Assembly (NCBI RefSeq): GCF_032854445.1
Contig: NC_088301.1
Coordinates: forward strand, 43,573,187-43,637,186
DNA from: Liolophura sinensis
Taxonomy: Eukaryota; Mollusca; Polyplacophora; Chitonida; Chitonidae
Direction of reading: 5' to 3'
Length of the DNA stretch: 64,000 nucleotides
The notes beneath the pieces were generated by a model, which was given only the letters and a program-made list of their open reading frames with translations, did not search any database and was not told where the DNA came from. This document shows, one piece after another, positions 35,018-54,000 of the stretch. Positions within the stretch are counted from its first letter, which is position 1. Every line of letters starts with the position of its first letter. The position numbers were made by a program, and so were the translations under genes.

Positions 35018-36706
35018 GGAGAGAAACAGCCCCAAATGTGTCGGACTGACGGTAAGGAAAATTTATCGCTGTTCACACATTTCTAAAGGAGAAGAAAACT
35101 TAAAAACATGACACTATGGGATGAAAAGAGCACATTTTTTTCTATCTGGTGGTGCCGGCTGCATAATTTTGAGATTTTTCCTTGCCATACAGGTAAAGCC
35201 TGAAAACAGCAAAGCTGGCATAAATCACTGAGTTCATCAAGTCCTCCATCTTTAACACCCTGTAATTTATGCTGGGGGTGTGTTGCCTCTCAGCCAATGA
35301 GAGTCGTTAAAACTGCTGGCTTGTTCATGTAAACTCGGAACCTACGTCCAACATTCCGGTTTCCCGATCGTCAAGAGGAAAACGCACTGTACTCTTCGCT
35401 ACCTTCTGGAAAGAAGAGTTCTACCGGAAATTTACGACTGCACTTTGGCGGTTTCTGATGGCAATTCTCCTCCTAACACAGAAGACTTCAGGACTAGTTC
35501 TTAGGCAAAATAGAGTCGCGCTGACTTTATTTATAATTTGTCAACTTGAGGTACATGTTTTTTTATGGCATTCAACCTGCCAGTCAATGCATACTCTTTT
35601 CAATGGTATTTGATTGATATTTAAATTTTCTTCTCCTTTAAAACTTCTCTAGCATAAATCAACTTCAACCATGTTATCTCTGTAAGTACCACAATTCTTC
35701 TAATTTTTGGGTAATTGGTAAGACAATAGACCCAATCTACTTTTTTTAAAGGCAAAGAAAACACAAAAAATGATGCATGTATGATCAGATGAAAGACCAT
35801 TAACAACTGCCCAGGAAAATAGTTGGGTTTATCTTTTACAATTGGCCTAACCTAGTAAAATGCAGTTTTTACATCTGATTCTATGGTAGCCTTTTCTGAC
35901 GACATTTGGACAAGTGATGACATATAAGGTTTTTGCTACTTATCATACATAAGACTGCTACATTTCATCATTCAAAATGCATATACAAATAGATCTATAA
36001 ATGCCTTTGCCGATTTCACCTTAAAACGAATTATTTCAGGCAAAAAGTATGGATGTGATGTAAATGATATTCTCTGAGTTACAACAGACCAAGGTAGAAT
36101 CTAATCTTTTAACACCATTTTACTCCGTTAGAAAAATTGTAAAAAATTAAGTCAAAGTATTTTCCTGGACAGTTTTTAATGGTCTTTCATCTCATATATA
36201 CTACACTTTACTGTTCTCTTTGCCTTTAACCAATACACATGTAAGTGTAGCCAGAATATTTAGTTTCATTTTTTTTTCACATGGTTCCATTTAATAACCA
36301 ACAAATTCATATCTTTACTTTCCCAAAAACTGAGAGAGAAATATAACTGTTTGCACTACTTATATCTTTCGTAAAAATTAGAAGAAATAGGTAACTAACC
36401 TGTTGTCGAACTAAACAGGTTCATGAAATTAAAGTCTATTCATGAAAAATAATCACATTTTCCTAGCCTATACTGGAGGCTTGAAGTTATTAAGATGCTT
36501 CCATATCTAGATAATTTTCTTTTGTTGCCACTTTGTGTGAGTGTCACAGACTATTTTGGGGTTAGGCAAACCTAAGAACAGGTTAGTTAATTAGTAGGAA
36601 CATGTGGCTTGCATCGATTTATACTAGAGAAGATTTAATACATGTGTTAACACCGGTGAATGTTCCTTCCTTTCAATCCGACACATTTGGGGCTGTTTCT
36701 GTAATT
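35018..36706. repeat. Long diverged foldback (inverted repeat)
   Basis: The outer arms share a perfect 23-bp inverted match (35023-35045 with 36677-36699, core CAGCCCCAAATGTGTCGGA). Inner segments 35788-35821 and 36158-36191 match in inverted orientation with two mismatches over 34 bp. The similarity continues toward the centre near 35.97 kb (TTTTACAATT, AGTAAAATG and ATTCTA landmarks in the same order). Arm lengths differ because of indels. It could be a non-autonomous foldback transposon; no open frame is present. Confidence 0.7.
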
Positions 36707-36806
36707 TTCGCAGCTGTATTATTCCATACAAGTTACCCCACTCCTTAACTAGAGTAATGTTATGATTTAGATGAGAAAATTGAAGATACGTCTTTAAGTA
36801 ATAATA

Positions 36807-37064
36807 TTTATTTCATTTATTTGACTGATGTTTTATGCTGTACTCAAGAATATTTCATTTACATGGAAACGGCCAGCATTATGTTGGGAGGAAAATGGGT
36901 AGAGCCTGGGGGAAACCCACAACTATTCGCAGGTTGCTGGAAGACCTTCCCACATGATCGGAGAGGAAGCCAGAATGAGCTAAACATGAACTCGCAGTGA
37001 CCGCATTGGTGGGAGGCTCCTGGCTGATTGTGCCGAGCTGTCATCCTACCCACTTCAGCCATGG
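36807..37064 (-). repeat. tRNA-derived SINE, near full length
   Basis: The tail (TTTATTTGACTGATGTTTTA) is at the left. The core has AGCCTGGGGGAAACCCACAA and GCAGGTTGCTGGAAGACC. The tRNA-like head (GAACTCGCAGTGACCGCATT, then AGGCTCCTGG) is at the right. Orientation is minus. It is one of the best-preserved copies in the window. Confidence 0.88.
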
Positions 37065-38457
37065 ACACCCCTCACTTAATAATATACATGCAGACGTACC
37101 AACATAAGAAGCATTCTACACATATTAACTCTTTGGTCTTATGGGGGACATCAGCTGCACAGAATTATAGCTCACTTTTCATGTCAAAATGTCCTGCTTT
37201 GAACTTAAAAGTTTGCCAACAGAATAGAGCCAATGCCTGCTGATTTTTTAATTCCTTGTAAAGTCTCTTTTAATGCACTGTATGTATCAACAATTTAAGT
37301 ATCAAATAACCACTAGTGAACGAAGTAGCTTGCGAAGTAATGTTGCTTTGGTAACGTACTAGTAACCAAAAAAAAAATAAGTGCAATAAACTAGACATAA
37401 CTTAAGCCTACGTTGTTGTGGTTGCTCTCTGACAAACTTGAGCAGTTTGACAAATTCCTTCAAGAATTCGCTCAGAAATATTTGAAGATTGATGGTGCTT
37501 TCCCGTTCTTAAATGACGAAGTTTAATCATGTTTATTAGGATTCACTCCTATTTTCCTGCCTAATTAGACTAACCTTGCAGGTGGTTCCAAGTATCGTTG
37601 ACCAGTCCCAAGATGGCCTCGCAGGGATTCCCCTTCAGGCTTCGTCATGTGGCGATGTCGGAACGAGGCTGGAGGAAATCCCCTCCTGTGGCTCAGGACA
37701 CGGTTTGACTATGCCGATATTTCAAGCACAGTAGGGATACAGTGCATAATGTATTAACCTTCTACAGTGATCTCGTCCAAAGCTAGGGCTTTTGATCTAC
37801 TTCTGGTACAAGACGGCACGCGCTAACTGGTGTCAACTCTAAAAAGCATATAGTAAATAGGAGCAGATCTCTATAGCTGCTAGATGCATGTATATTCATA
37901 CATGTGCATAGCGTCTTGAATGTACACGTATGTACTCTCTCGACTCACACCGCTCTAATAAGTGGGATTCACGCTATACTGTGTGGTGAAAATAGGAATG
38001 ATTTATCAACTACGGAAGCTCAAAATGTATACATTCATTTCATAGTAGGTCTGCAGCATCATAGTAGCCAGTGTTTTACTAATATAGGAACATGGGGCAA
38101 CAGTGACCCTAAAATGTTATATCACCAGTACAAAAAATATTGAGAATCTTTGACTGTTTGCAAGTTATGTGGAAGTCAATTAATTAACTAATTTCTGTGA
38201 CTTATATATACCGGTATATAGTTGTGACAATCAACGTAAATAGATGAGTGGAATGTATTTAGACATCCAGATAAGCAGTAAATAACGGTTTGATGATAAA
38301 CAAGATAATCCAGTTCACTAAAAAAATTAACCAGTTAATTTCAGTAGAAACTAGTCCGTGATACTAACATGTATTCTGTTGCCATAACGCAATACTGCGT
38401 CATACTTCAACATATTATCATGCTAGGCTAAAGCAATCTTTATTTTGAGTTAATAGA

Positions 38458-38525
38458 ATGTGTGTGAGTGAGTGAGTGAGTGAGTGCTTGGGGTTTAACG
38501 TCGTACTCCAGAATGTGTGTGATAT
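38458..38525 (-). repeat. Short repeat fragment with (GTGA)n
   Basis: A GTGAGTGAGTGAGTGAGTG run is followed by CTTGGGGTTTAACGTCGTAC. The same GTTTAACGTCGTACT motif occurs at about 207-222. This looks like the tail end of a second dispersed element family, truncated here. Confidence 0.55.
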
Positions 38526-39480
38526 ATTAACAGAACAATCTGCCACAATGACAGAATACATTCTAGTATCACTCAATCAACATACTTTCTGTTAAATTTA
38601 ACAGACTATTTTTAAAATAATTTTTGACCTTTATTTATCAATTTCTGTAGCTGTAGGTAAAAGCTCGGTCATAGCTAAATGAGATGAAGCACAAAATTTC
38701 ACAAATTTCAACAGTCTTACGTCATGCATGACTTTATGATAGTAAGTCTCGACAAAAATTAAACTAAATAATCTTCAATATGTCAAGCAAGCCGCGCAAT
38801 ATCTGCAAGCAAAACCAATATTCGACATTTCCATTGTGGAAGTGCATTCACATACATACGCTTTCATATAGTCCATGATAGAGAGGATCACAAAATCATT
38901 GTGTGGTGCTGCGTAATTGTGTCGTTATATAATTGCTTCACAGAAATCATAGATAATACAAGAGCTAGTCTGTTTTGCGTACAGATTTAATGTGGAGTCT
39001 TTTTCTCGTGTCTTTGAACTAGAGGACAGTCGATATACAAATCACTATAAAGGGAATGAGCAATTATAAGACCGTTGCAGAAGGTGCATGGACCGTGAGA
39101 AATGTTTTCCAATTTCTAAACAGTGGGTGAAGACATTTTTTTTTCTTTCGGATGTTTTAATATAGTACCAAAGGTATGCACCACCTTTAAAGAGATTTGA
39201 TGGGATAATTTCCAGAACAATCATTCAAATAAACTAATATTTATTCACATGCAGCAATTATTAAAGATGAATTCGTGTTTTGTACAGGCAGTTTTTGTGT
39301 CCAGAACCCCAGTTGTACTCTTTGTAATGAAATGTGTGCGTGCTGTATGTAAAACCAGGACCTATATTGATAGGATTGCTACCAAGGCACGCATGTGTGT
39401 ATGTGTGTGTGTGTGTGTGTGTCACAAATTCAATTGGCACTGGTTCTCCCCTATTGCATATTACTTGCTCGTGGGGGGGG

Positions 39481-39525
39481 GGACAAAACTCCCGCGGACA
39501 AAACACCGCCGGACAAAACCTCCGA
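39481..39525 (+). repeat. Left terminal inverted repeat of the transposon
   Basis: Three consecutive units: GGACAAAACTCCCGC, GGACAAAACACCGCC and GGACAAAACCTCCGA. The array is directly preceded by a run of Gs (39473-39480). Its reverse-complement counterpart is at 47705-47749. Confidence 0.8.
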
Positions 39526-40410
39526 AGATCATCCATAAGCGCCACGATCAGTATTAAGTGTATATGGTAAAAGACATAAGCTGTTTGTTTGTTTGAGAAA
39601 ACTTGAAACACTCTCCCAGAAGTGACGTTTCAGATTTCAATACATGTTTGCAATAAATAGAACCCCTGCTTATTCGTTCAATCTCCATGTATTCTAACCG
39701 TTTTTGACGACATGGGAAAGAGCTACATATCTGTCAGCGGTATACAGAATGCTCCATCTTCTTTCCAGGCTCATCTTAAAACTAAAGAAGTCTACAAGTA
39801 TGGTAAACAATTGCTGTTTTGCAGCTTGTGTTTTTTCCCTATTCTAAGAACGCAAATCTTATATATACTAGTATGAGTCAATTGTTCCTATCCCGGAAAT
39901 ATAACTTACATGCTATAGCCTAAAACCTCTAAAGAAAATGGTTGATTCCAAATACTTCTAGCAGTAATGGTTTTAACCTCAGAAAACAAAAGAATCAAAA
40001 CGTGCCTATTTCGATTTGTCAGAGTGTTTATGTTCAAAAACATGCACCCAGCATTCATTTTACCGATTTCGGGGAATAATATGTAAACTTTAATTTACGA
40101 AATTAATCTAAAATACTTCCGATTTAACGTTAAAATCACTGATTCGTTTTATTTACCAGATACATCCATGTAGGGCATATAAAATAGAAAAAAGTACACA
40201 GTAACTTAGAAAAATAAATTATTGTATTTTATTCTCATAAGAGTATTCAGAAATAATATTTTTCTTGTAAACTATGATTTGGTTTTCGAAATTTCTAAAT
40301 AATCAGCATTTTAAAACACATCTGTTATACTGAACACATAAAATTGCATAGTACAGGCGCGAGGTGATACTGTGAATCAAAGTTAGCTATAACATGTGAA
40401 GAGTTTGATT

Positions 40411-40693
40411 CCAAAACGCGATAAATCCATTTCCAATGTTTGGTTAAAAAGCACATTTTTTACCTAGAGTGATTGATGACTGTAATTGATCAATTATATT
40501 GGCTGAACCTTTAGTGACAAACTACTCAAAGACAATCAGCACAAATAATTAAATCCAGAACTAATTACTACTTTCGTTTGATGAAATTAATTATTTTATT
40601 TGCAAAACGCGACATATCCAAGTTTAATCTTTTTTTCACAAAATGCTATATATCCTGATTTAATTTGTTTAACTGAAAAACGTCACTAATCCA
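40411..40693 (+). repeat. Left subterminal motif array
   Basis: Four variants of a roughly 19-bp motif: 40411-40429 (CCAAAACGCGATAAATCCA), 40602-40620 (GCAAAACGCGACATATCCA), 40637-40655 (CACAAAATGCTATATATCC) and 40674-40693 (AAAAACGTCACTAATCCA type). The last three are spaced about 36-37 bp apart. Inverted counterparts lie at 47224-47396. These are plausible transposase binding sites. Confidence 0.65.
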
Positions 40694-41045
40694 GTGGTGT
40701 AACTTCATGCATCTGGCAAAACAAAGTGATTTACTTGATGAAACATTAACTGACTAGTTTTGCAATAATTACAGGTATCAAAAAGAAAACTGCTGCCAAA
40801 TTCACAACTTCTGGCCGTAACACACAGGCAAGATCGCTAATAACAACAAAACACAATTCATACCGAAATGGAACACACAATTTCAACTTTAAGAAAGGTT
40901 AGGATCTAACCTAGAATATCGCAATGAAAAGAAAAAGAGTTTAATTAAACGTTTTAACCATCAACACACAATTTCGGAAAACTAACTCTTCAATAATTAC
41001 TGTTTCACTGAGCACAGCGCGGGATTTTAACAGTCTAGGTTAGGC

Positions 41046-43720
41046 CTACTCCTCAGCACTGCTATTTTCAGAGTGTTCGACACTACCGGTAACTCTGTTT
41101 GTTAGAGCACTGTTGTAGAAATCGAATACTTCTTCACTTGCTCCAATTTCAAGCAGTAAACTGTTCACGTCCCTAGCTTTTGCATCACTGACTGTGCTTT
41201 GGGTGTGCAACTGAGTGGGTTTAAAGTCTGCCCACCTTTTCCCCCGCTTAAGGATACTGTGATAACAGTATTCACCATTATAAACGGTTTTGAACCCAAC
41301 TTTGTCATTCTCAATCTTTAACATGCGGGCCTCGCTAATTTTAAACGTTTTCTGTGATTTTGTAAATGCCTGTGTGGCAGACTTGTAGTCAAATGCCTGC
41401 CAATCTTTACCATACACAAAGACATTTCCATAGTTTCTAAGGATCCCATAGTAGTCCTGAGGCATAAGGATTGTGTGGTGTTTCCGTATATTTTGTTCTA
41501 TCCGACCTAACACGCGATCAGCTGGGAGGAAAGAATGACCTCTAATAGGAAAACTGTATTCAATGTTAACATTGGGAAAGGCATTCTTTCGCAGAGCAAA
41601 TAGCATAGATAGAACGTTCATGTTTTTATTCTGTCCAAAACAGGAATCACTGAATAAGCGCAGCTGATTAGCCTGTCGTAGACTACCATTCAAGGCCCAA
41701 CGAAAACAGTGGTCAAGGGCGGATGAGATCATGTTACTGTCCTTTTTGTTTTCATGCTCCATCCAAGTATAGAGATAAACATCATCTTTGATCTGGCGGC
41801 TTTCCTTCCCATGGTGTACTACTATCATAAATAGATACATGTAAAGTTGACGTGAATAGTAAGCCTGACCGATAGGTGTTTTTGGTAGAACCAGGTTCTG
41901 CATCATATCAAAGCAAACTGTGACTGATGTATCTATAACCTGTCCCAGTAAGTCATAAAATACACGTGCACGTCGCCTATGCAGAATAAATGAGGCAGTT
42001 TCAAACTGCTTTTCCTCATCAGTCATATTCGGGTCTTTCATTTTCAGGCGGTACTTAACACATGTGGCACATGCATCACTGACAGGGCTCCCAAATCCAA
42101 GATTAAATTTGTAACGGAAAACGGAATAATATAAAGAATAGCTGACATCTGCATGGTTTTGTTGTTGGAATAAAGCATGCATTTTTTTCACACTCAAATC
42201 GCTTGGCAAGTATTTTCTGCCAGGTGCCCCTCTACGCCCATAATGACTTGCGCGACATGTAAAGGTTTTCACATGCTCCTCGATATCCTGTTTTTTCTGC
42301 TCATAATCAGCTACCCTGCGTCTACCGCCTCTGTTTTCCGGTCGACTTGTAGCGTGTTCGGCATAATACCGTGCAATTCTGGTTACACGATCTTTACTGA
42401 CGCCTGAAAAAGGAAGAACATAATCGGTCTTATTACTGCCATGTACGCTTTTGACCCACAAAATTTGGAGTAAATTTCAGAAAGCACAAAATGGAGCAAA
42501 TGAGCAACTTCTCTGTCTCTCACCCTCCCTTACTGAAGCTACAATGTAAGTCAACCGTATATTATGTAAATGTGTTGTAATAATGTAAACTCAGGAATTG
42601 ACGGAATGATTTCTCATTAATGCAGTCCTGATTTGATCTGATTTGATTACACCTATGACAATCAAACGCAAATTACTGAAATGCTTTCACACCACAGGTT
42701 TGACGTGAAGCCAAACTACTGGCTTTGATCTTTCAGCTGCAATGATAACTGACTGTTTGGGTTGATTGGTTGGATGGTGTTTATAACCGTACTTAAAAAT
42801 CTATCACTGGCATAACAGCCTGCCAGACTTAAGGGTGAAGGAAGCCGGGGTACCGGAGAGAACCACTGACCTATGTCAAGTCCTATCAACTCTTCCACAT
42901 GTGACACACGTCCAGTTCACGCAATGACTTACACCACAGCGGTGAAAGGCCAGTGATTTCCAGCGAAGGCATTACTGCGTTACAAAATCTAAAAGTGCCG
43001 TTACTCACTTGGCCACGAACAATTACAGCGAGAAAACCATGGAAATTCGCTGACCGAGTCAGATTTGACACCTGAGCCTCATGTATCAAACACAGCTGAA
43101 AAACCACACCCTTAACCTGACCGTAACAACCCACACTGTCAACCGTAAACCTATGAGCTTTAGTATGTTGTTGCTGTTCGACATTTTCACAAAAAACAAA
43201 GAAAAAATGAAAAAACAGCAGCAACTGGAATTGAACTCTGCTTTTGAACGTTGAAAGCCATAAAAAATACAGAATTTGCGTTGTCATATCACTTACCTAA
43301 AACCTTCAAAAATGTGGCCTTGCATACGTGTAGCCTGTTCGGGTGATCTTTAGTCATCAGCCTGTACTGAACCGAGAGGCACCGGCCCTTCCTGGAATCT
43401 TCATTTTCGACACGTAGGCGCCGTCGTTTAACCTTCTCAATGGTCATTAGTTGAAGCAGCATCTGGTCCTGTTCAACCTTGTTCTGTTTGCCATAAATTG
43501 TGTTAAAGTTGAAAGCGATGTCATCTGGTGTGAGCTTATCTGCATGGCAAAATGAACACGAACGAGCCTCATGCTGACAAGCAATTCCCGGTACTTTACC
43601 CATGCCGCTATGTCGAATTTTCTTAACTTTCTCTCGATCATGATGTTCCTTGGACGGTCTGCGTTTCTTCCCTACAGGCGATAATAGGACAGGCTCATCT
43701 GTTCCGTCAAAATTATTCAT
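41046..43720 (-). CDS. DUF7869-like transposase candidate, two exons
   Basis: Exon 1 is 43720-43297 and exon 2 is 42403-41046, joined by an intron with donor GTAAGTG and acceptor TTCCTTTTTCAG, in phase (593 aa). The start is the ATG at 43720. The frame runs a little further upstream without an ATG, to where the 453-bp repeat begins. The N-terminal part is basic, has a CxxC (CSFCHAD), then DSRKGRCLSVQYRL and HVCKATFLKVLG, a pattern I know from DUF7869-type proteins. The C-terminal part has acidic residues in FDMMQN, LFSDSCFGQNKN and IRGHSFLPADRVLGRIE, which resemble the D..D..D/E spacing of RNase-H-like enzymes. This similarity is from memory; catalytic activity is inferred. The uninterrupted frame suggests recent activity. 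It is flanked by matching inverted termini. Confidence 0.8.
42745..42905 (-). repeat. SINE-like fragment inside the transposase intron
   Basis: TTGATTGGTTGGATGGTGTT is followed by ACCGTACTTAAAAATCTATC and, further on, GAAGCCGGGGTACCGGAGAG and AACCACTGACCTA. The order matches the tail and core of the dispersed SINE group on the minus strand, in a subtype with a different core. It sits between the two transposase exons. Confidence 0.5.
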
Positions 43721-43774
43721 TATTCCCTCAAAACTGTCAAAATAGTGGAAGCTAAGACCTATCAGCTGCTGTCT

Positions 43775-44227
43775 GGCCACAGACCCCCATTAGTTTTCCA
43801 TAAGCGACAATGTTAACGTTTAGCGCTGTAGCTCAGTCCCAAACATTCCGAGGCCAATAAGCTTTGGTGCATACCTGGCCCAGCCTGAGAGAAAGAAGCT
43901 GTAAAAATCTTGACATAGGTTGACCGTCAAAATCTGGACCTTTACATGCCGGCAGCTGGGAGGGGTGCTTAGCAACGTCAAGGGGACGTCACTCGCAGCC
44001 TCGTCACCACCTGTCTCCTTGTGTCCTCTCGCCCAGAATTTCAAACTTTCACCATTAAAACTCATACCTGCCCAAAGCTTAGACAATTTCCATCATTTTC
44101 ATACCAAGCATGCACTTGTACACTAAAAACGGCAGGCTGGCAGCAAAAAAAGACTTTACACCCTAAAATACACAGAACTACAATCGTCCCTACTGAAAAA
44201 CGCAAGTTGTAATGGGGGTCTGTGTCC
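43775..44227. repeat. 453-bp repeat, copy 1
   Basis: Its ends are inverted repeats of each other: GGCCACAGACCCCCATTA on the left and the complement of GGACACAGACCCCCATTA on the right (one mismatch in 18). The body is almost identical to copy 2 at 46677-47129, with only about six to eight differences and the same length. It contains no coding sequence I can support. It abuts the upstream side of transposase exon 1. Confidence 0.93.
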
Positions 44228-46676
44228 TATCACACCAGCCAACTTTTTTTAAAATCAATCATTTTTGCACCACATAATGCTTACTACCTCTAAACCTCAC
44301 ACATAAAGTTACAGCTTGATACATGCAAAAACTTTTCAGTAGGAGGAATTTAACTTGGGGTACCCCTATCTTGGAAATGTGTCTGTTTGTCCGTCCTCAA
44401 GCACCAAGTTCAAAGCTCTGTAGTGCACATACCCTTCAAAATATCTTAACCAGGTCAAATGTTTTGGAAAGCTGGTATGTATATCTGCAAGAAAAATGAA
44501 AAAATTCCAATGACAAAGTATTTTACATTTTCCATTGACAAACATTTAGAAAATTATGGATTTTCAAGTAGATTTTCTTGTTTACAGCAGTGTTAAGAAA
44601 ATACTTAAAAGCCAAAAGTGTCAAAATATATATCAAAAGACAGGTAATTTATCTGACAATTCACTTAGCAAATATAGGACATACCTTTTAGCAACTTTGT
44701 GCAAAATTTGACTTAAAGTGATACAGGTGGGTAGCAAAGCGGAGTTTCAAAATTCCAGAAAAGTACATTTTGATCACCATCAAAGTAAACGTATGCATCC
44801 AAATTGATATAGAAATGCTCATAGGCAGAGTTTCCATGGATAGGGCTAAAGAAAAGACTAGTATCCCTTTTACATAGTGATTCACATGATAAAACCCTTT
44901 AAAAGATCACCCACTCCCCCCCCCCACACACACACACTACCCCCCTTTCCCGTCTCCCCCATGGCTGCCATTGGTTGGCTGGCTTACCTCAACTCACAGT
45001 GCAAAAGAATCCCACCACCTGTGTTGTTGCCTCAGACTAAATTAGTACTTTCCACATAACAAACACCAAAGTGTGACACTGGCATCTACAAGAGATAAGT
45101 AGAGGGGAGAAATATGAATTTGCCACTTACAAAAATAAAGCCACACAGTACATGCACATTGGTCATTCAGACAGTCAGCAAGGCAACCCTCCCAAGACAT
45201 GTTGAAGGGACCCAAGAAGAGGGGAAAAGCTATACTTTTTAACCTGTAACAACACAGAAATCCTCAAATAATCAGTGAGAAATTACATCCGTAATCAGGT
45301 TCCACACTGGGTGTTGCTGGGTGGGCATGAGGAATGGACATTCAAACTGTCCGTACATATATGAGAAACCTGTGACGTTTCCCCGGTTGGGGGGGTGGGG
45401 GGGCCGGAGGGGTATGTGTCATGGTGTAGTACCGGACCAATGACGGGGATTCTAGGTCGGCCAAAGGAGTCGAAGACTGCATCCGAATGGTCAGGCCTTT
45501 GAGGAAGCTGAACGGCTAGCAGACCCCACTCACCTAGGTAGATCCCAGTTCAATATATGCATAAACCAGGCAAAGTTCACTGACGCCATGTTTGGGAGAC
45601 AAGATCTAAAGAGGGAAACCAAGACAAAAGCTCAATAGGTATTAAACTAGGATGTGAAAGACATATGTAGCTGTCTAATTTCTAACTTGTGTGTGAGGAC
45701 ATTGGAAACATAAAAAAAATCCCAGCTGCCCAGGGAGGTGGATGCCACACTGGGCCACATACTAAAACAAAAACTCCTTGAGATGTCGCAGGAACAGCGT
45801 ACTATGTTCTGGTGGAAAAACAGACACCTGGTGGGGCAGAGACTCATTTTCACAAGGGCAATATTCCAACAGATCACACTCACATGTATGCTAGAAACTT
45901 GAAATTGATCATTTTTGTTCCAACGCCACACATACTGTGTGAGTGCACATGTAACTTGTCAGAGGAATGAATATACACATGCAATGAAAACTACATGCCC
46001 ACAGTGGTTTATTTTTAAGTTTAAAGAGGAAAATTTACCTTGTCCACTTCAAGTCTATGCCCAAAACAGCAGACAGTGTTCCAGCAGAGATGCCTGTTTT
46101 TCATGTTTTGTGACCTGCAGGATGATTTGAAGCACATTTACCTAGTGTGTGGTGGCACACATGGGAGGAACCTGACTTGGTTTGTAAATTAAATGCACAC
46201 TGGCCCTCTCTACTACTCTAGCCAAGTAAATTAATCTGCTGATGTGTTTTTATCCACCTGTGTGAGGCTGGGCCCTTATATGTGATGCAAGGCCTTATTG
46301 ACCATCCTTAATCACACCACCCTATCTATCAGCCACATACTCCAATTTCACTCGCAGCACTCAAATTTTGCATTATTTATCAAATGTCAGCCCCAAAAGA
46401 GACATTTTAAAAACCAGGAACAATGAAACATTGTCTGTGTTTGGTCCAGTCTGTTTATACTCCTGTACTACCCTTGACCACAGAGCGCTTTAGCCCATTT
46501 TTAGACAAAATGGATATGTGGGGAAAATATAGAATTAAAAAGCTTTAAAACTGCTCAATCAAGTTCCATGTCAATGCAAACCACATCGCAGATGTACCCA
46601 CCAAATATTATCAGGCTGTTGCCAAATCTGAGCACACAGTGACATATTACATGTTTTGGCACAAGTGGACAGATCA

Positions 46677-47129
46677 GGCCACAGACCCCCATTAGTTTTC
46701 CATAAGCGACAATGTTAACGTTTAGCGCTGTAGCTCAGTCCCAAACATTCCGAGGCCAATAAGCTTTGGTGCATACCTGGCCCAGCCTGAGAGAAAGAAG
46801 CTGTAAAAATCTTGACATAGGTTGACTGGAAAAATCTGGACCTTTACATGCCGGCAGCTGGGAGGGGTGCCTAGCAACGCCAAGGGGACGTCACTCGCAG
46901 CCTCGTCACCACCTGTCTCCTTGTGTCCTCTCGCCCAGAATTTCAAACTTTCACCATTAAAACTCATACCTGCGCAAAGCTTAGACAATTTCCATCATTT
47001 TCATACCAAGCATGCACTTGTACACTAAAAACGGCAGGCTGGCAGCAAAAAAAGACTTTACACCCTAAAATACACAGAACTACAATCGTCCCTACTGAAA
47101 AACGCAAGTTGTAATGGGGGTCTGTGTCC
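46677..47129. repeat. 453-bp repeat, copy 2
   Basis: Direct copy of 43775-44227 with the same 18-bp inverted ends. Visible differences include GACTGGAAAAATC in place of GACCGTCAAAATC, and CCTAGCAACGCCAAGG in place of CTTAGCAACGTCAAGG. The near identity suggests recent duplication or insertion. Confidence 0.93.
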
Positions 47130-47223
47130 GTCTGCATGGGCGCAGCCATGTTGGATTACCTTCGGACGAATGGAAGGATCTGATTGGCTGACTGGATATA
47201 TCGCTATCTGGGTCAAATGTGTT

Positions 47224-47396
47224 GTGGCGCATATCGCATTTTGAAAACAAGCCAAACTTTTAGAAGCCTGAAGGATATGGATTTAGCGCATTTTGGTGAA
47301 AACTATATATGGTAGGCACAAGATTAAACTATTGCCGACATGTTAGTGGTGGCAGCGTGAATTTCTTGAAAATGGCGTTTATCGCGTTTTGGAACC
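47224..47396 (-). repeat. Right subterminal motif array
   Basis: Three inverted variants of the left subterminal motif: 47224-47246 (GGCGCATATCGCATTTTGAA), 47272-47298 (GGATTTAGCGCATTTTGGTG) and 47373-47396 (GTTTATCGCGTTTTGGAACC). On the minus strand the last reads TTCCAAAACGCGATAAAC. It is preceded by sequence close to that before the left copy at 40411, including ACATG(TG)AAGAGTTTG. Confidence 0.65.
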
Positions 47397-47704
47397 AAAC
47401 TCTTCATGTATGCCATGTTGAAATACTTCAGCCAAACAAATTCAGCAGAGCGGTAGAACAAACTTATATTTGCTGAGCGAAAAAGCATTCGATAATAATA
47501 TTTGAGACATCAGTCATTTTCGGCGTTATTGTTTTGAAAACTTATGGGAGGAAGGCTGTTGAATGCGAGGGACAAACTGGGATAGGTTTTGATGACAAGT
47601 TTTTAGATGGAAAGCAAAGTCACACTATATGAATTCCCGTCAACAAATACTTAACATCATGCTTGTTAGACTGTCGGATATCTTTTGTAGGTTAATTAAG
47701 ACGA

Positions 47705-47749
47705 CGGGGTTTTTGTTCGCGGGGGTTTTGTCCGCCCGGGCATTTGTCC
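47705..47749 (-). repeat. Right terminal inverted repeat of the transposon
   Basis: Reverse complement of three units related to the left end: GGACAAATGCCCGGGC, GGACAAAACCCCCGC and GAACAAAAACCCCG. It ends at TTTGTCC, position 47749. The flank beyond it starts TGGATTC. Confidence 0.8.
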
Positions 47750-47885
47750 TGGATTCTTTGGTCACTAAGACCTCCCCATGCAACTAAGGTGCATGACTGC
47801 TCGCAGAACCCAAACTGGACCCCATACCTTGTATTCTAGCTTCACGTGTAGAAAACATGAGAAACAGTTGAGATGAATGTTATTT

Positions 47886-47891
47886 TTTATT
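47886..47891 (-). terminator. Polyadenylation signal of the TPR gene
   Basis: AATAAA on the minus strand (TTTATT on plus) lies about 200 bp beyond the stop codon at 48090-48092. It is the nearest such signal before the transposon boundary at 47749. Confidence 0.5.
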
Positions 47892-48089
47892 TGTTTATAG
47901 TACACTGCGTCTTTGGTTATATTATCTTAAATCAAAGCATGTTTTAATTGCTGAAAAAGAAGAAGAAGAACACTGTCCCAGATTTATGGCTGTAACACTT
48001 TGCCCGCTGTACATGCATATTTTGTCACGACGTACCCTATAATTAAATTTATCATAAAACCGATACATGCGTGCATGTAACATATAGCT

Positions 48090-51000
48090 TTAATAGAAGG
48101 CCAAAGTTGTTTTTCTTCTAGATATCTCTGCTGTGGGCAGTCGATCGCCTTTCCATGGGCTGTGGGTGAAAAAAATAGAACACTTATTAGCATTTTGCTA
48201 CTATAAGTTATATAGTATATTGGCATACGGAAAGTTCTGTACAATTGGGTTTGGTCACGCCGAGTCAGTGCATATGACTTTGTCATAATTGTACATGTTT
48301 AAAATTAAGTCAAACAATGTTGTGTATATAAAAAGGTTTCAAGTACCCATCTAGCACAAATATGTACATATATAGTTTTACATAAATAAAAAAATACGCA
48401 ATGCGTAATTTTACCAACAATGACTTATACCCATGACTATATTATCTCAGACCTGGCTTACCGGTAATACATGCGTGGTGCGTCTTTGATGTTTATGGGT
48501 TGGAAAACCTGCAAGAAGAAGAAGAAAAAAAAAATAAAATAACTGCTATGCTCAATCATGCAAGGTGTATGGCATACCTGTTGGTATAGAACGTACATGC
48601 ATATCACACACAGACGTGTTGATCTACTGTACAACTAACAGCACATTATATTAATGTGCATTTAGTTATGGATAAGAAAGTAAAAATTATAACTCACACT
48701 AGACATATAATTCACAGACATGCCCTTTTGCTACATGTAGATTCTGGATTCATTAATTTTAAACATGGGGTATGAAACAACCATTTTGTGGAAAATCTGA
48801 GAAGTGAAGTTGTTCATGACTGGAAGCGCACTATTCCTTTGCTATTATAAAAACACGATTGGCTGCAAACATACATGCAGTCTGTGACTTCATACATCTA
48901 AACTCTACACTTACCGGTATGGTGTAGTTTGAAGGTGACTCGATGGTGAAAGTTTTCGTCCGTCTTGTCTTGGTTTCTCGGGATGCAAGTGGCGTCTTGC
49001 AACTAGTGTTACGACTGCTGTTTCCGCGCCCTTGTTCGGACCTAGATTTGGAAGGGGACAGAAAAGAGGCTGGGCGGCTGGCAGGTGCAGAGGCCGCGCC
49101 CATCAGCGATCTGCCAGAACAAACATGTGTAGTCGCATCCCGTTGTTGTATGGACTGGTACAGTTCCGCTGAAATGAAACATTGGGTGCAAACCAGAAAC
49201 AACATAATGAAATTTGATTTTTTGCTCATCACAAGGAACGTCAACAAAATTTAATAATGTATATTAATAAAGAGTCAACTACGGTATCAAGAGCGTTTTA
49301 TAAATGGCCTGTTCTCTTATATATGCTCACCATGCAGGCAATGAAATTATGCCATCGATGACAGTATCAGACGATCTTCCGGTTTATATCTTGCATTTGT
49401 TAGAAAGTACCTGCGTGTATGTAAGTTATTTTGTAAATATATCTTTATGTTATCAAGGTGTCCTTCCCAGTGAATGCTAGCTATTTCATACAATACACCT
49501 ATAGGCATAATTATTATTACTACTGAACGTATAGCATGCATGCATAGAGACCACAGGGGTCCTGGTATTGTGGCAATTTGCTATATACACAAAACAAATA
49601 AAGTATTCAGAGCTGAGCTCTGTGGGCTTTGTATTTATGACGATGCCGTGCTCAAAACTGATCACCTTCCTATATCCATATAATGCTGTGAGCAGAGAAA
49701 AAAATATAACACACAAATAAACCAAAAGATGGCCGATAAATCTTGCCTAAAAACTGAACATTTAACTTAACTGCACTTTTACTGGTTAAGAAAACATTTA
49801 CAGAACACACAGGCACATTTTTCTATAGTTCTCCTGACAACCACATGTATTTAATTTTTGGCTTATAGGTTTACTTTTCTTTATACTCCGAATCTACAGA
49901 ATTTGTGTACGTTTTGCCCTGATTTACCAAGATATTCCTGTGCTGTCTTCGGCCTGACCGAGTGTTTCCTGACCGCTTCTCCGTAATCGTGGCGCCGGAG
50001 AGCCGACGTTTTGTTGATTTCGGCCGGAGTTGGGGTGCCACATTTAAAGGCATCACCGATATTCAGTCTTTCTTCTGCAGACTTCACTCTTCTCTTCGAA
50101 GACGGTGAGCGATACAAGGCCTGATTCCTCTCTGACAATCGACAGAAATTAGACAACGGCATAAAGTCTTATAGTTTTCGTGATTCATGCAGCGGACAGT
50201 TTTCTTGTTCCAGTACAACATAAACTCTTTCATAAGAAGAACACTCTTCCACGCAAGTTTGTTATAACATGCACGCATAAATATCAATAAAAGCCATTTT
50301 GTGATACCCCAAAGCATTGCTTGTCTCAACGTTTGCTTATCGACGTGCCATTATACAAGAGATATTAAAATTGGTCCATTATATAGTGTATATTTTGGGC
50401 GTGGACAGGAACTTCTTGTGAATTTCTTGGTTTTATATTATTGTTCGTTGATCCCTTGTTGATAATAATATAAGGCTCGTGTGAGTATAGCTGAATCGTT
50501 GAAGACTACTTGTCTTCCACCATGATAGTGTGTAAATTTGCACGCCATAAATAAGCATGGAAACTGGCTACATAGTTGTTAAATGCGTAGGTGCTTGCTT
50601 TATCTCAGGAAAACCAATTTCCTCCACTAAAAAACTGGCTGCTATGTAAGTCAACAATTCTTGGGAATGGCGTTAAACAACAATTAAATAAATAAATAAA
50701 TAATGTCTGGGTGTTATTTGTCTTACCAAGTTGCTTTTTGCTGGGTCGGTCTGGGGTCAGATCCACTGTCATCACCGTGTGAGGTACGCTCAAATTGTGT
50801 AGAAATCTGTGTGAAAGAAAGTGCTAGAATTATAGGCTATTCTAAGTCGTATAAGCGTGTGAAATAGTGTATTAAGTCCATTCCTTGGCAGTGTTTTGAG
50901 AGTAAAATACAACTAAAATAATAGAACATGCATATTACTTAGGTATATACGCAAAATTACGGTATGGTACACTGGATTTTCACCGTCATTTGTTTAGTAC

Positions 51001-54000
51001 ACATGACTTGTCAAGTGAACGAAAAGCTTGTCTACTTGTAATGACAGTCTGATTCCCTTTCATTCCTTTATTACTTTATTTTAGAATGGGCCAATCGGCT
51101 GTTTTTCACGACATGTACAATTCATATACACGTATAGTGCACTACAATACGCATGACACAAAATATCCAGTGCAGACTTTTCTCACAAATGTTTTACACC
51201 TCTGCATACACAATACATTTAACATGTTTTGTTTTCCTAATATAGTGAAAGTGCTTTTTTAACAAATGTACATGTATATAATGGTGTATGATCTGAATTT
51301 TTTCACCGCATTGATATTTACTGTACCTATTATAAAAGTCAAGCACCAGTGGGTCTTTAAAGTTAACAACATTTAAAAATGGTTTCGTGTCTGGGTTTAA
51401 ACCTGCGGCCTGTAACAAAAAAAAATAAATAAATAAAATAGTAAATTTAAACAAGACAAGAACAAACAGTATATCTATAAGAAAGATCCATATATAGATA
51501 TATACAGAGACTTATATATATATACTCAGGCTAAATATGTATCGTGGAAGACATATTGAAAGACATGCTTAATCCAAGTAAATTGAATTATGGTTTAGAT
51601 GAAATAAATCTTCTCTGATTGTGCAGATATTTTAATGAATCACCTTTTGATGGTTTAACCCATACATAAAGTAAACTATATGTATATATACCAGGGATTT
51701 TGTTTCTCCCCGGGAATCATGCATGTGTATTTTGATCACACTTTATAGCTTCCAGGTAACATTTGTTTACCTTTTTGTGGAACTCGTTGTCAAGAGGTTG
51801 ATATAGTTCACTCCATGCCGCATACTGAAAAGAAATCATATATAGGACACTGCTTGGAGCACGTGGCATTTGTTGGTAAAATATATGGGAATAGAAACAT
51901 TTATTCAGTTTTTACATATAATCTCATAAGTTTTCTTATTTAATTTTCTTGTGGTAACAAAGATTACCCGTTGGCCAATGTACAAGCAGATATAATCACA
52001 TTATATATGATAGTGGTTTATTGGTACATCTATAAGGACCCGTGACGGGAAGGCTAGAAATTACACTGAAAACTAATTGATCAAACAGAAAGGATATATG
52101 AATTAGACCATTATTTTTCTTAGATTAGGCATACTTACTAGAGGTCGAGACAAGCCCCCTCGAACAACAAGAGCTGCCAAATGGTCCGGGTTGATCCGAA
52201 GGGCTTCGTTTGCGTCACGTATTGCCTGTGAATTACATTATTTAGTAATTAAGCTTGGTACAAATTCTTTCTTCATTTATTTGTTGATATGATTGGTGTT
52301 TCATGCCGTACTCAAGAACATATCACTTATATGTCGGTGGCCATCATTATGAACCATGCAAAGAAAAGCCCATGACCATCCGCAGGACCCAAGTTCTTAA
52401 TACCCTCAAACGACTGACAGTATATTTTCTATTTACCTTTTGTACGCGAATACCCTCAAAAATCAACATTTTGATTCTGTAGGTTATTTTTTCATTATAG
52501 ATTTGTGGGGTCAGTCACAAATGACGAATGTACGAATTCGACGCTTCTAAAATAATAGGTATAGTTAATGATTAGTTTATCATCATGGCTGTGATTGGCT
52601 GTGACAGACGTTCCCACGTACGACTAGAGAGGAAGCCAGCAGGAGCTGGCCTTGAACCCACAGCGATCGCACTGGAGAGAGGCTCCTATGTCCTCATGCT
52701 GCACTATAGCACGCTAACCACAAGTCAAGGATGTCGCGTGGTACTGTCTATTGGTTGAAACATGATTCATTTTCCCATATTTTTAAGATGTGAAAGTATA
52801 CTTTACAAGAGGTTCCTCATCTCTGGTGCTTCTTGTCAATGCTCGGACGCAGAGAACATCCTGGAATCATATACACATTCACATATATATACAGGTATAT
52901 ATACAGGTAACAATATTGTTGAGAGAGTAGTAGTATGTTCTAACGTCAGATCATTCAGTTAATCATAAAAGCAAGAATGCATACAAATGTAATACTAAAA
53001 TAGTTACATACGTAAAGAAAAAATGTGAATCACCCTCAATACAAAAGAGAGTATATGCATGCAATATCCGGAAAATTGTGCTATGGAAGGCAAGGTATAA
53101 TCACATTAGCTGCTACAGGATAGGCCTGTAGTATTTCTGGGGACGTGCCTTTGTTTCCATGCATGTGTAGCCATAAACACTTACTGGATTTTCACTATCT
53201 AGCACCACAGCTCGCTCAGCATCCTTCAACGCTCCGGACAAGTCTCCTGGAAAATTTGTTTTGGACAGTTATTCGCTGTATGATAATTCGTTCATCGTTT
53301 AAAATGTAACTACAAACGTCAGATTACAATTCTATATTTCATGGTAACCATCTGTGGAAGTTCTCTCAGATAGGGTCTCCCAAGATCACAACCCTATATA
53401 ATATATGTCTCATAAAAATACACATTTCTATAGCTGTCATTAGAGATCACAACAGATGACATGGAACTCAAAGCATATCATCTGACGCTCCCCTTTATTG
53501 TATTGGAAGCTCTCCATTATTTTATCATGTTTCCACTTTAAGTGTATATATGTGTATACCTGTAGGTACCTGTACCTGTTAAGGCGAGGGCAAATGCTCT
53601 TCTCGCGTGCACAGGAGTCAACAGGCACGTGTTCATCGAACAGCCAGCGGTGCAGCCATTCTGTGGAACAATAGCAAGTTTTATTCCATTGTAATTATCG
53701 GCAATTGTTAAAGACATGTCATTTATACTTACGTAAACACGGGCGCATTTTTGCATTACACATGAACACAAATGTCACTAATATAATTTCTTTTATAGTT
53801 TGGTCGAGAATGTTTTAAAGACCAGAATAAAGACAATGAAGACGGCGATGCATAAATACAATCATGTATACTTATTATATAGGAGGATTAATCACTGAAA
53901 TAATTACATTTACTTTGTCTTCATGGCATTTAGATTGTCATTACATACATGTATACAAACCTTCGGAATAGATATTGCAGAAATAGCTTTAGTGAACTCT

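Follow-up and report, generated by a model that had tools for sequence, protein, structure and literature searches.

A segment of the Liolophura sinensis genome that an earlier note had described as one transposon of an undescribed family very probably consists of three DNA transposons, unrelated to one another and nested one inside the next. The segment occupies positions 39475-47756 of the window, by which we mean the whole 64,000-nucleotide stretch of DNA that was analysed, and comprises an outer Tm1-like element, a middle Sola2-like element that carries a gene with the Pfam domain of unknown function (DUF) DUF7869, and an innermost KolobokP-like insert. In this reading the segment is a case of ordinary nesting, and the three kinds of transposon involved are all already known. 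Genome searches covered 609 Mb in 632 contigs, and the coordinates of the features are collected in Table 1.

The earlier note proposed a single autonomous transposon at 39481-47749, with triplicated 15-bp ends and a DUF7869 transposase. The tandem units and the gene are indeed both present, and the inverted ends do enclose the gene. The spacing of about 8.27 kb was also given correctly, and the left end consists of three head-to-tail 15-bp units as described. At the right end the description of three inverted units stands in part: one unit is clean (47719-47733), while its two neighbours are degenerate, both lying more than two mismatches from the pattern (47734-47749, GGACAAATGCCCGGGC, and 47704-47718, GAACAAAAACCCCGT). 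What fails is the claim that ends and gene form one coherent autonomous element, as two different elements own them.

The first line of evidence comes from the other copies of the gene. Counting that of the window, five copies of exon 2 are listed in the genome, with protein identities of 98-100% (98-99% for the other four). These four, each taken with 10 kb of DNA, were compared with positions 36001-52000 of the window and proved 98.9-99.6% identical to it in DNA sequence (97.9% for one 47-bp piece of L034). L032 and L033 align over 40397-43775 and 47130-47406, L034 aligns over the same two intervals but lacks an internal stretch of exon 1, and L031, the C4 copy, aligns over 40397-42500 only. 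The first three terminate at the inner inverted repeats on both sides and L031 at the left one, and the GGACAAAA ends found no match in the 10 kb around any of the four. The left-end query gave 9 matches in the genome (9 of 9 candidates scored), only the window's own lying beside a near-identical gene copy; the right-end query gave at least 43 (best 40 of 101 candidates scored), and among those listed the window's own was again the only one beside such a copy. Ends and gene thus move separately: the four gene copies occur without the ends, and relatives of the outer element run through the insertion site without interruption, which is the outcome that the earlier note itself had named as contradicting its proposal.

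The middle element so delimited has the ends GAAGAGTTTG...CAAACTCTTC, with inverted arms of 29 nt at 97% (those of a relative measure 28 bp, at 96%), and measures about 3.65 kb without its own insert, or 3650 bp in L033. The second subterminal motif of the earlier note corresponds to these arms, which are real and form the terminal inverted repeat (TIR) of a separate inner element. The family appears small, because a genome search with the right arm gave 5 matches and 4 TIR cross-matches (9 of 9 candidates scored).

The second line of evidence is an empty site. The window flanks 39470-40397 and 47410-47765, joined into a 1284-bp query, align across the junction to 22 of the 51 loci compared, at 67-88% identity with gaps counted. 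The alignment to L017 is 75% identical over 1364 columns (141 gaps), and L017 carries ATAACATGTATGCC at the junction, with a single ATGT where the window has two. Since these loci run through the junction, with one ATGT in L017, it was the middle element that entered the outer one, and ATGT was duplicated in the process. Moreover, tandem-unit relatives with pairable caps are mostly 0.3-1.7 kb long and lack the DUF7869 gene, and many cross the insertion site. Divergence is likewise unequal within the segment: copies of the middle element differ from the window copy by about 1%, whereas L017 differs in 25% of columns with gaps and in about 17% of ungapped columns, from which the outer family is judged to be old. 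On the empty site, and on gene copies that lack GGACAAAA ends and have TIRs and 4-bp duplications of their own, the single-element explanation is rejected as almost certainly wrong.

The third line of evidence is the target-site duplication. Of 13 insertions of the middle element and two related families, a script found 11 to be flanked by perfect direct repeats of 4 bp, a count reached in 0 of 5000 shuffles, and found none that were perfect at 3 or at 5-8 bp across the same insertions; the truncated L031 and the decayed L024 were excluded. The script had misplaced one end of L085, where inspection gives AAAT/AAAT and raises the count to 12 of 13. All 12 perfect duplications have the form A..T (ATGT twice, AATT, AAGT, ATAT three times, AAAT twice, ACAT, ATTT and AGCT), and 7 of the 12 fit the strict pattern AWWT.

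The order of events would be as follows. An old outer element with GGACAAAA ends would have been present first; a young cut-and-paste element, most likely of the Sola2 kind, entered its middle and duplicated ATGT; and a composite, KolobokP-like non-autonomous element would later have landed in front of the DUF7869 gene, some 55 bp upstream of its start codon. The last of these is younger than the middle element because it is located inside it. It would have separated the gene from its 5' end, and the window copy may be poorly expressed.

Table 1. Features of the nested segment (positions are those of the window)
Feature	Position	Strand	Basis or remark
Outer element: old, non-autonomous, Tm1-like Mutator/Foldback type	39475..47756	.	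Joined-flank alignment, caps, 10-bp duplications of the family
Left-end units of outer element: three of 15 bp (GGACAAAAC...)	39481..39525	+	Pattern search, head-to-tail
Right-end units of outer element: about three, of which one is clean and two are degenerate	47704..47749	-	
Right-end cap GAATCCA, outside the last unit	47750..47756	-	Present in many copies
Middle element: young DUF7869 transposon, most likely Sola2-like	40398..47405	-	Aligns with the whole copies L032 and L033, with L034 (internal deletion) and with L031 (truncated)
ATGT target-site duplication of middle element, left copy	40394..40397	+	
ATGT target-site duplication of middle element, right copy	47406..47409	+	Single ATGT here in L017 (ATAACATGTATGCC)
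TIR of middle element, left arm (with 1 base of duplication)	40397..40425	+	97% complementary to 47378-47406
TIR of middle element, right arm (with 1 base of duplication)	47378..47406	-	
Transposase exon 1, ATG to GT donor	43297..43720	-	
Transposase exon 2, with DUF7869 and predicted RNase H-like catalytic core (D166, D253, D296)	41046..42403	-	
Innermost composite insert, non-autonomous, KolobokP-like	43775..47129	.	Absent from L032, L033, L034
First 453-bp long terminal direct repeat	43775..44227	+	98.7% identical to second
Second 453-bp long terminal direct repeat	46677..47129	+	
2449-bp internal region	44228..46676	.	Repeated in the genome, 97-100% among matches listed

The gene of the middle element was described in the earlier note as an intact, two-exon, DUF7869-like gene, and this description holds: the two exons join at GT/AG borders into an open frame of 593 aa without a stop, and the protein matches the DUF7869 profile at E 3.6e-9. 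Its proposed role as a transposase candidate is likewise borne out, the gene lying within a real DNA transposon with its own TIRs, duplications and near-identical copies. We aligned the window protein with 13 relatives of 21-58% identity to it, and residues are numbered here from the first residue of the window sequence used in that alignment. H290, D296 and E216 are invariant and D253 is nearly so, and position 166 is an aspartate in 11 of the 13 (the exceptions are L083 and L074). The Pfam model PF25273 was matched by 10 of the 13 at E 0.01, with L079 and L081 below the curated cut-off.

The predicted structure (pLDDT 76.9, pTM 0.68) shows the strand and helix order of a ribonuclease H (RNase H) core in residues 160-307, with D166 on strand one, D253 past strand four and D296 in the helix that follows. 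VIA-align 2 superposed the model on the core of SIV integrase (Z 11.4, 128 residues, rmsd 2.6) and on the transposase domain of SETMAR (Z 9.8, 162 residues, rmsd 3.4), with SETMAR and Mos1 together at Z 9.1-9.8, in a list that re-examines Foldseek's own candidates and for which the tool's notes describe best Z values of 7-8 as common by chance. A sequence search of solved structures returned two matches at a meaningless E of 0.34. The DUF7869 part is accordingly modelled as an RNase H-like DDE/D nuclease core with D166, D253 and D296 as its predicted catalytic residues. A shared fold taken alone is no proof of function; given the TIRs, the duplications and the near-identical copies as well, the window protein is by far most likely to be a cut-and-paste transposase. 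Its N-terminal part would bind the GAAGAGTTTG... inverted ends, and the enzyme would cut and then join at ANNT targets 4 bp apart. Sola2 proteins presumably carry motifs like those of the window protein, a resemblance that serves as a lead and not as a test.

Sola transposons are described in a review as having DDD (three-aspartate) transposases, 4-bp duplications and TIRs of 11 to 1124 bp (PMC10741241). For Sola2-type elements, a paper on Fanzor proteins gives AWWT as the pattern of the 4-bp duplications and 12-21 bp as the length of the TIRs (PMC3627910). The middle element has the corresponding features, namely a computationally predicted RNase H-like DDD/E core, a 4-bp A..T duplication and terminal inverted repeats, and it also resembles Sola2 in the shortness of its TIRs and in a size of a few kb (PMC3627910, PMC10741241, PMC10294476). 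It differs in that some of its duplications have a central G or C, being ANNT and not AWWT. We consider the element most likely to be of the Sola2 kind, an assignment made from fold, catalytic residues and duplication. DUF7869 very probably forms the catalytic core of a Sola2-like transposase that has been mobile in recent times.

The departure from AWWT is one ground for placing the DUF7869 elements outside Sola, in a lineage of their own that would have a DDD transposase and duplicate 4-bp ANNT sites. Five of the 12 perfect duplications (ATGT twice, AAGT, ACAT and AGCT) are not AWWT, Pfam lists the core only as a DUF, and the name DUF7869 was not found in the literature searched. The testable features nevertheless fit the accounts of Sola2 (PMC3627910) and of Sola as a DDD group (PMC10741241), and we regard a separate lineage as unlikely. 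The broader proposal, in which DUF7869 is the core of a widely diverged and recently mobile DDD lineage with 4-bp ANNT targets, either distinct from Sola or an undescribed major branch of it, and with several families in this genome (25-59% identity to the window protein) intact enough for activity, seems to us rather doubtful.

Two related families were also examined. The second family, whose protein is 59% identical to that of the window, was analysed in six of at least 11 listed copies (L025-L030), which measure 2866-2897 bp and have similar ends, GAAGAG; in all six a 451-aa frame is open within about 2.9 kb and the 4-bp duplications are perfect. This family has probably been recently mobile. 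The third, at 30% protein identity (L075 and L084-L086), has different ends and is about 4.14 kb long. Its copies L084-L086, on C10, C3 and C30, carry a single-exon frame of 614 aa, 28-bp inverted ends CGCTACCTC... and the duplications ATTT, AAAT and AGCT; this family is judged to be very young because the copies are 99.4-99.95% identical.

The tandem units that the earlier note had assigned to a transposon family do belong to one. In the window, the unit pattern with at most two mismatches has 4 matches against 0.19 expected, and four were reached in 0 of 100 shuffles. Once the nested insert is subtracted the outer element is about 1.27 kb long, its left limit being uncertain within a G-run. 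In the copies inspected, each end of its relatives is built of units 15-16 bp long, by rough count between two and about six of them and rarely more, as in L014. The caps differ between the two ends of a copy, GGGGAC on the left and GAATCCA on the right, with the units next to them. With at most two mismatches, the right cap plus one unit has 129 matches in the genome (69 + 60) versus 1 for the reversed control, and the left cap plus one unit has 63 (29 + 34) versus 5.

The family also shows decayed target duplications of 10 bp. In 15 cap pairs with fixed borders, chosen by eye from the lists of cap matches and leaving aside the single-end pieces L070 and L071, mean identity at this length is 0.62 versus 0.262 in shuffles (0 of 5000); 11 bp is mildly raised (123 of 5000) and the remaining tested lengths lie closer to the background. 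A further set comes from 34 places examined by script, the duplicates L011 and L018 having been removed beforehand, of which 14 had both caps located. For these 14 copies under one border rule the 10-bp identity is 0.543 versus 0.293 (0 of 5000), and with unadjusted borders they give 0.436 versus 0.279 (1 of 5000). A count on 13 of them gives 0.523 versus 0.301, with L052 (1 of 10 matching) excluded and with hand-placed left borders in the window, L010, L015 and L041.

Variable tandem units, unlike outer tips and a duplication in the range of 8-10 bp are the traits of Tm1, an element of root-knot nematodes reported to have asymmetric 7-bp tips, GGA, tandem units of 13-15 bp, duplications of 8-10 bp and a Phantom-type transposase of the Mutator-like element (MULE) class (PMC3169594). 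The outer family shares with it the differing tips, the GGA, a variable number of units about 15 bp long, duplications of 8-10 bp and many copies resembling miniature inverted-repeat transposable elements, and it differs in the sequences of units and caps, in a 10-bp duplication where that of Tm1 is mostly 9 bp, and in that no autonomous outer copy was found (PMC3169594). The element with GGACAAAA ends matches a Tm1-type Mutator/Foldback element, and the units in tandem at its ends probably serve as repeated sites to which a Mutator-type transposase, encoded at another locus, would bind. Galileo, a Foldback-like element, has a P-element transposase (PMC3169594; PMC3573991), and by this analogy the outer element might have been mobilised by a P-type enzyme instead. 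Its 10-bp duplications are closer to those of Mutator (8-11 bp, PMC6446971) than to those of P (7-8 bp, PMC5199201), so that we hold P-type mobilisation to be quite improbable and retain the Mutator type.

The two longest cap pairs, L055 and L056 at 5.5 kb and 3.5 kb, were considered as autonomous outer copies and set aside, as by eye they contain reverse-transcriptase-like open reading frames (ORFs), taken to be those of nested retroelements. Among the titles listed on Foldback elements in molluscs, none pointed to the outer family. Two further observations concern its copies. The relative L045 has, in positions 1-1436, about a dozen tandem 90-bp units exactly at the site where the DUF7869 element is inserted in the window copy. 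At C10:16107733-16183539, five left caps lie within 76 kb, with no right cap nearby among the 100 of 129 listed; this cluster is perhaps a duplicated block.

The innermost insert is 3355 bp long. Its duplicated site is GTCT or GTCTG, at 43771 and 47130, and its two 453-bp direct repeats have 18-nt inverted tips, 94% complementary, of the form GG..CC. KolobokP elements are reported to have long terminal direct repeats (LTDRs) of about 450 or about 660 bp, inverted tips of 11-18 bp and RR..YY ends, and to occur also as solo repeats and multimers (PMC9587614). The insert is like them in its two repeats of about 450 bp with 18-nt GG..CC tips, its 4- or 5-bp duplication, and its occurrence as monomers and multimers, including abutting internal regions (PMC9587614). 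The likeness is one of anatomy. No ORF longer than 103 aa was found in 44228-46676, which makes the insert non-autonomous, at best a non-autonomous KolobokP derivative. Genome searches gave at least 40 matches to the direct repeat (best 40 of 2067 candidates) and at least 51 to the internal region (best 38 of 467), and the matches listed include monomers (one at C10:19612534-19615887) as well as arrays, with no solo repeat established among them. The arrays are long and tandem (C26:281228-313139, C321 and C7:32930501-32969292) and built of units of one LTDR and one internal region (INT); INT-INT copies also abut with a 4-bp overlap, as though the repeats had been precisely excised.

Several observations weigh against the picture as drawn. 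For the middle element, the duplication of L032 is imperfect (GTAT/ATAT), the Sola2 assignment is based on fold, catalytic residues and duplication, and the structural scores come from a re-examination of Foldseek's own candidates. Foldseek alone gave no match at E of 0.001 or below, its best being TnsB at 1.1e-3 and IstA at 2.2e-3. The Pfam DUF7869 model does not recognise L076, nor L075, which belongs to the 30% family with the same kind of duplication. For the outer element, several relatives are gapped or deleted at the junction and do not span it, which we count as neutral evidence. The window copy has no clear 10-bp duplication (2 or 3 of 10 positions matching), indistinct because its left border is blurred by the G-run, and L015, L052 and others also lack one. 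An autonomous partner of the outer element was not found by a MULE-domain search of the genome and by inspection of the cap pairs; that search gave 13 matches, none within 50 kb of the listed caps (100 of 129 right, 63 of 63 left).

This analysis shows how nesting can mimic a new transposon family with unusual ends. The outer element adds another animal example of ends of the Tm1 type. What retains value is a possibly active Sola2-like family and a probable function for DUF7869: a Pfam domain of unknown function gains a testable role as the catalytic core of a transposase of the Sola2-like type, for which ends and targets are defined and young, near-identical copies exist.

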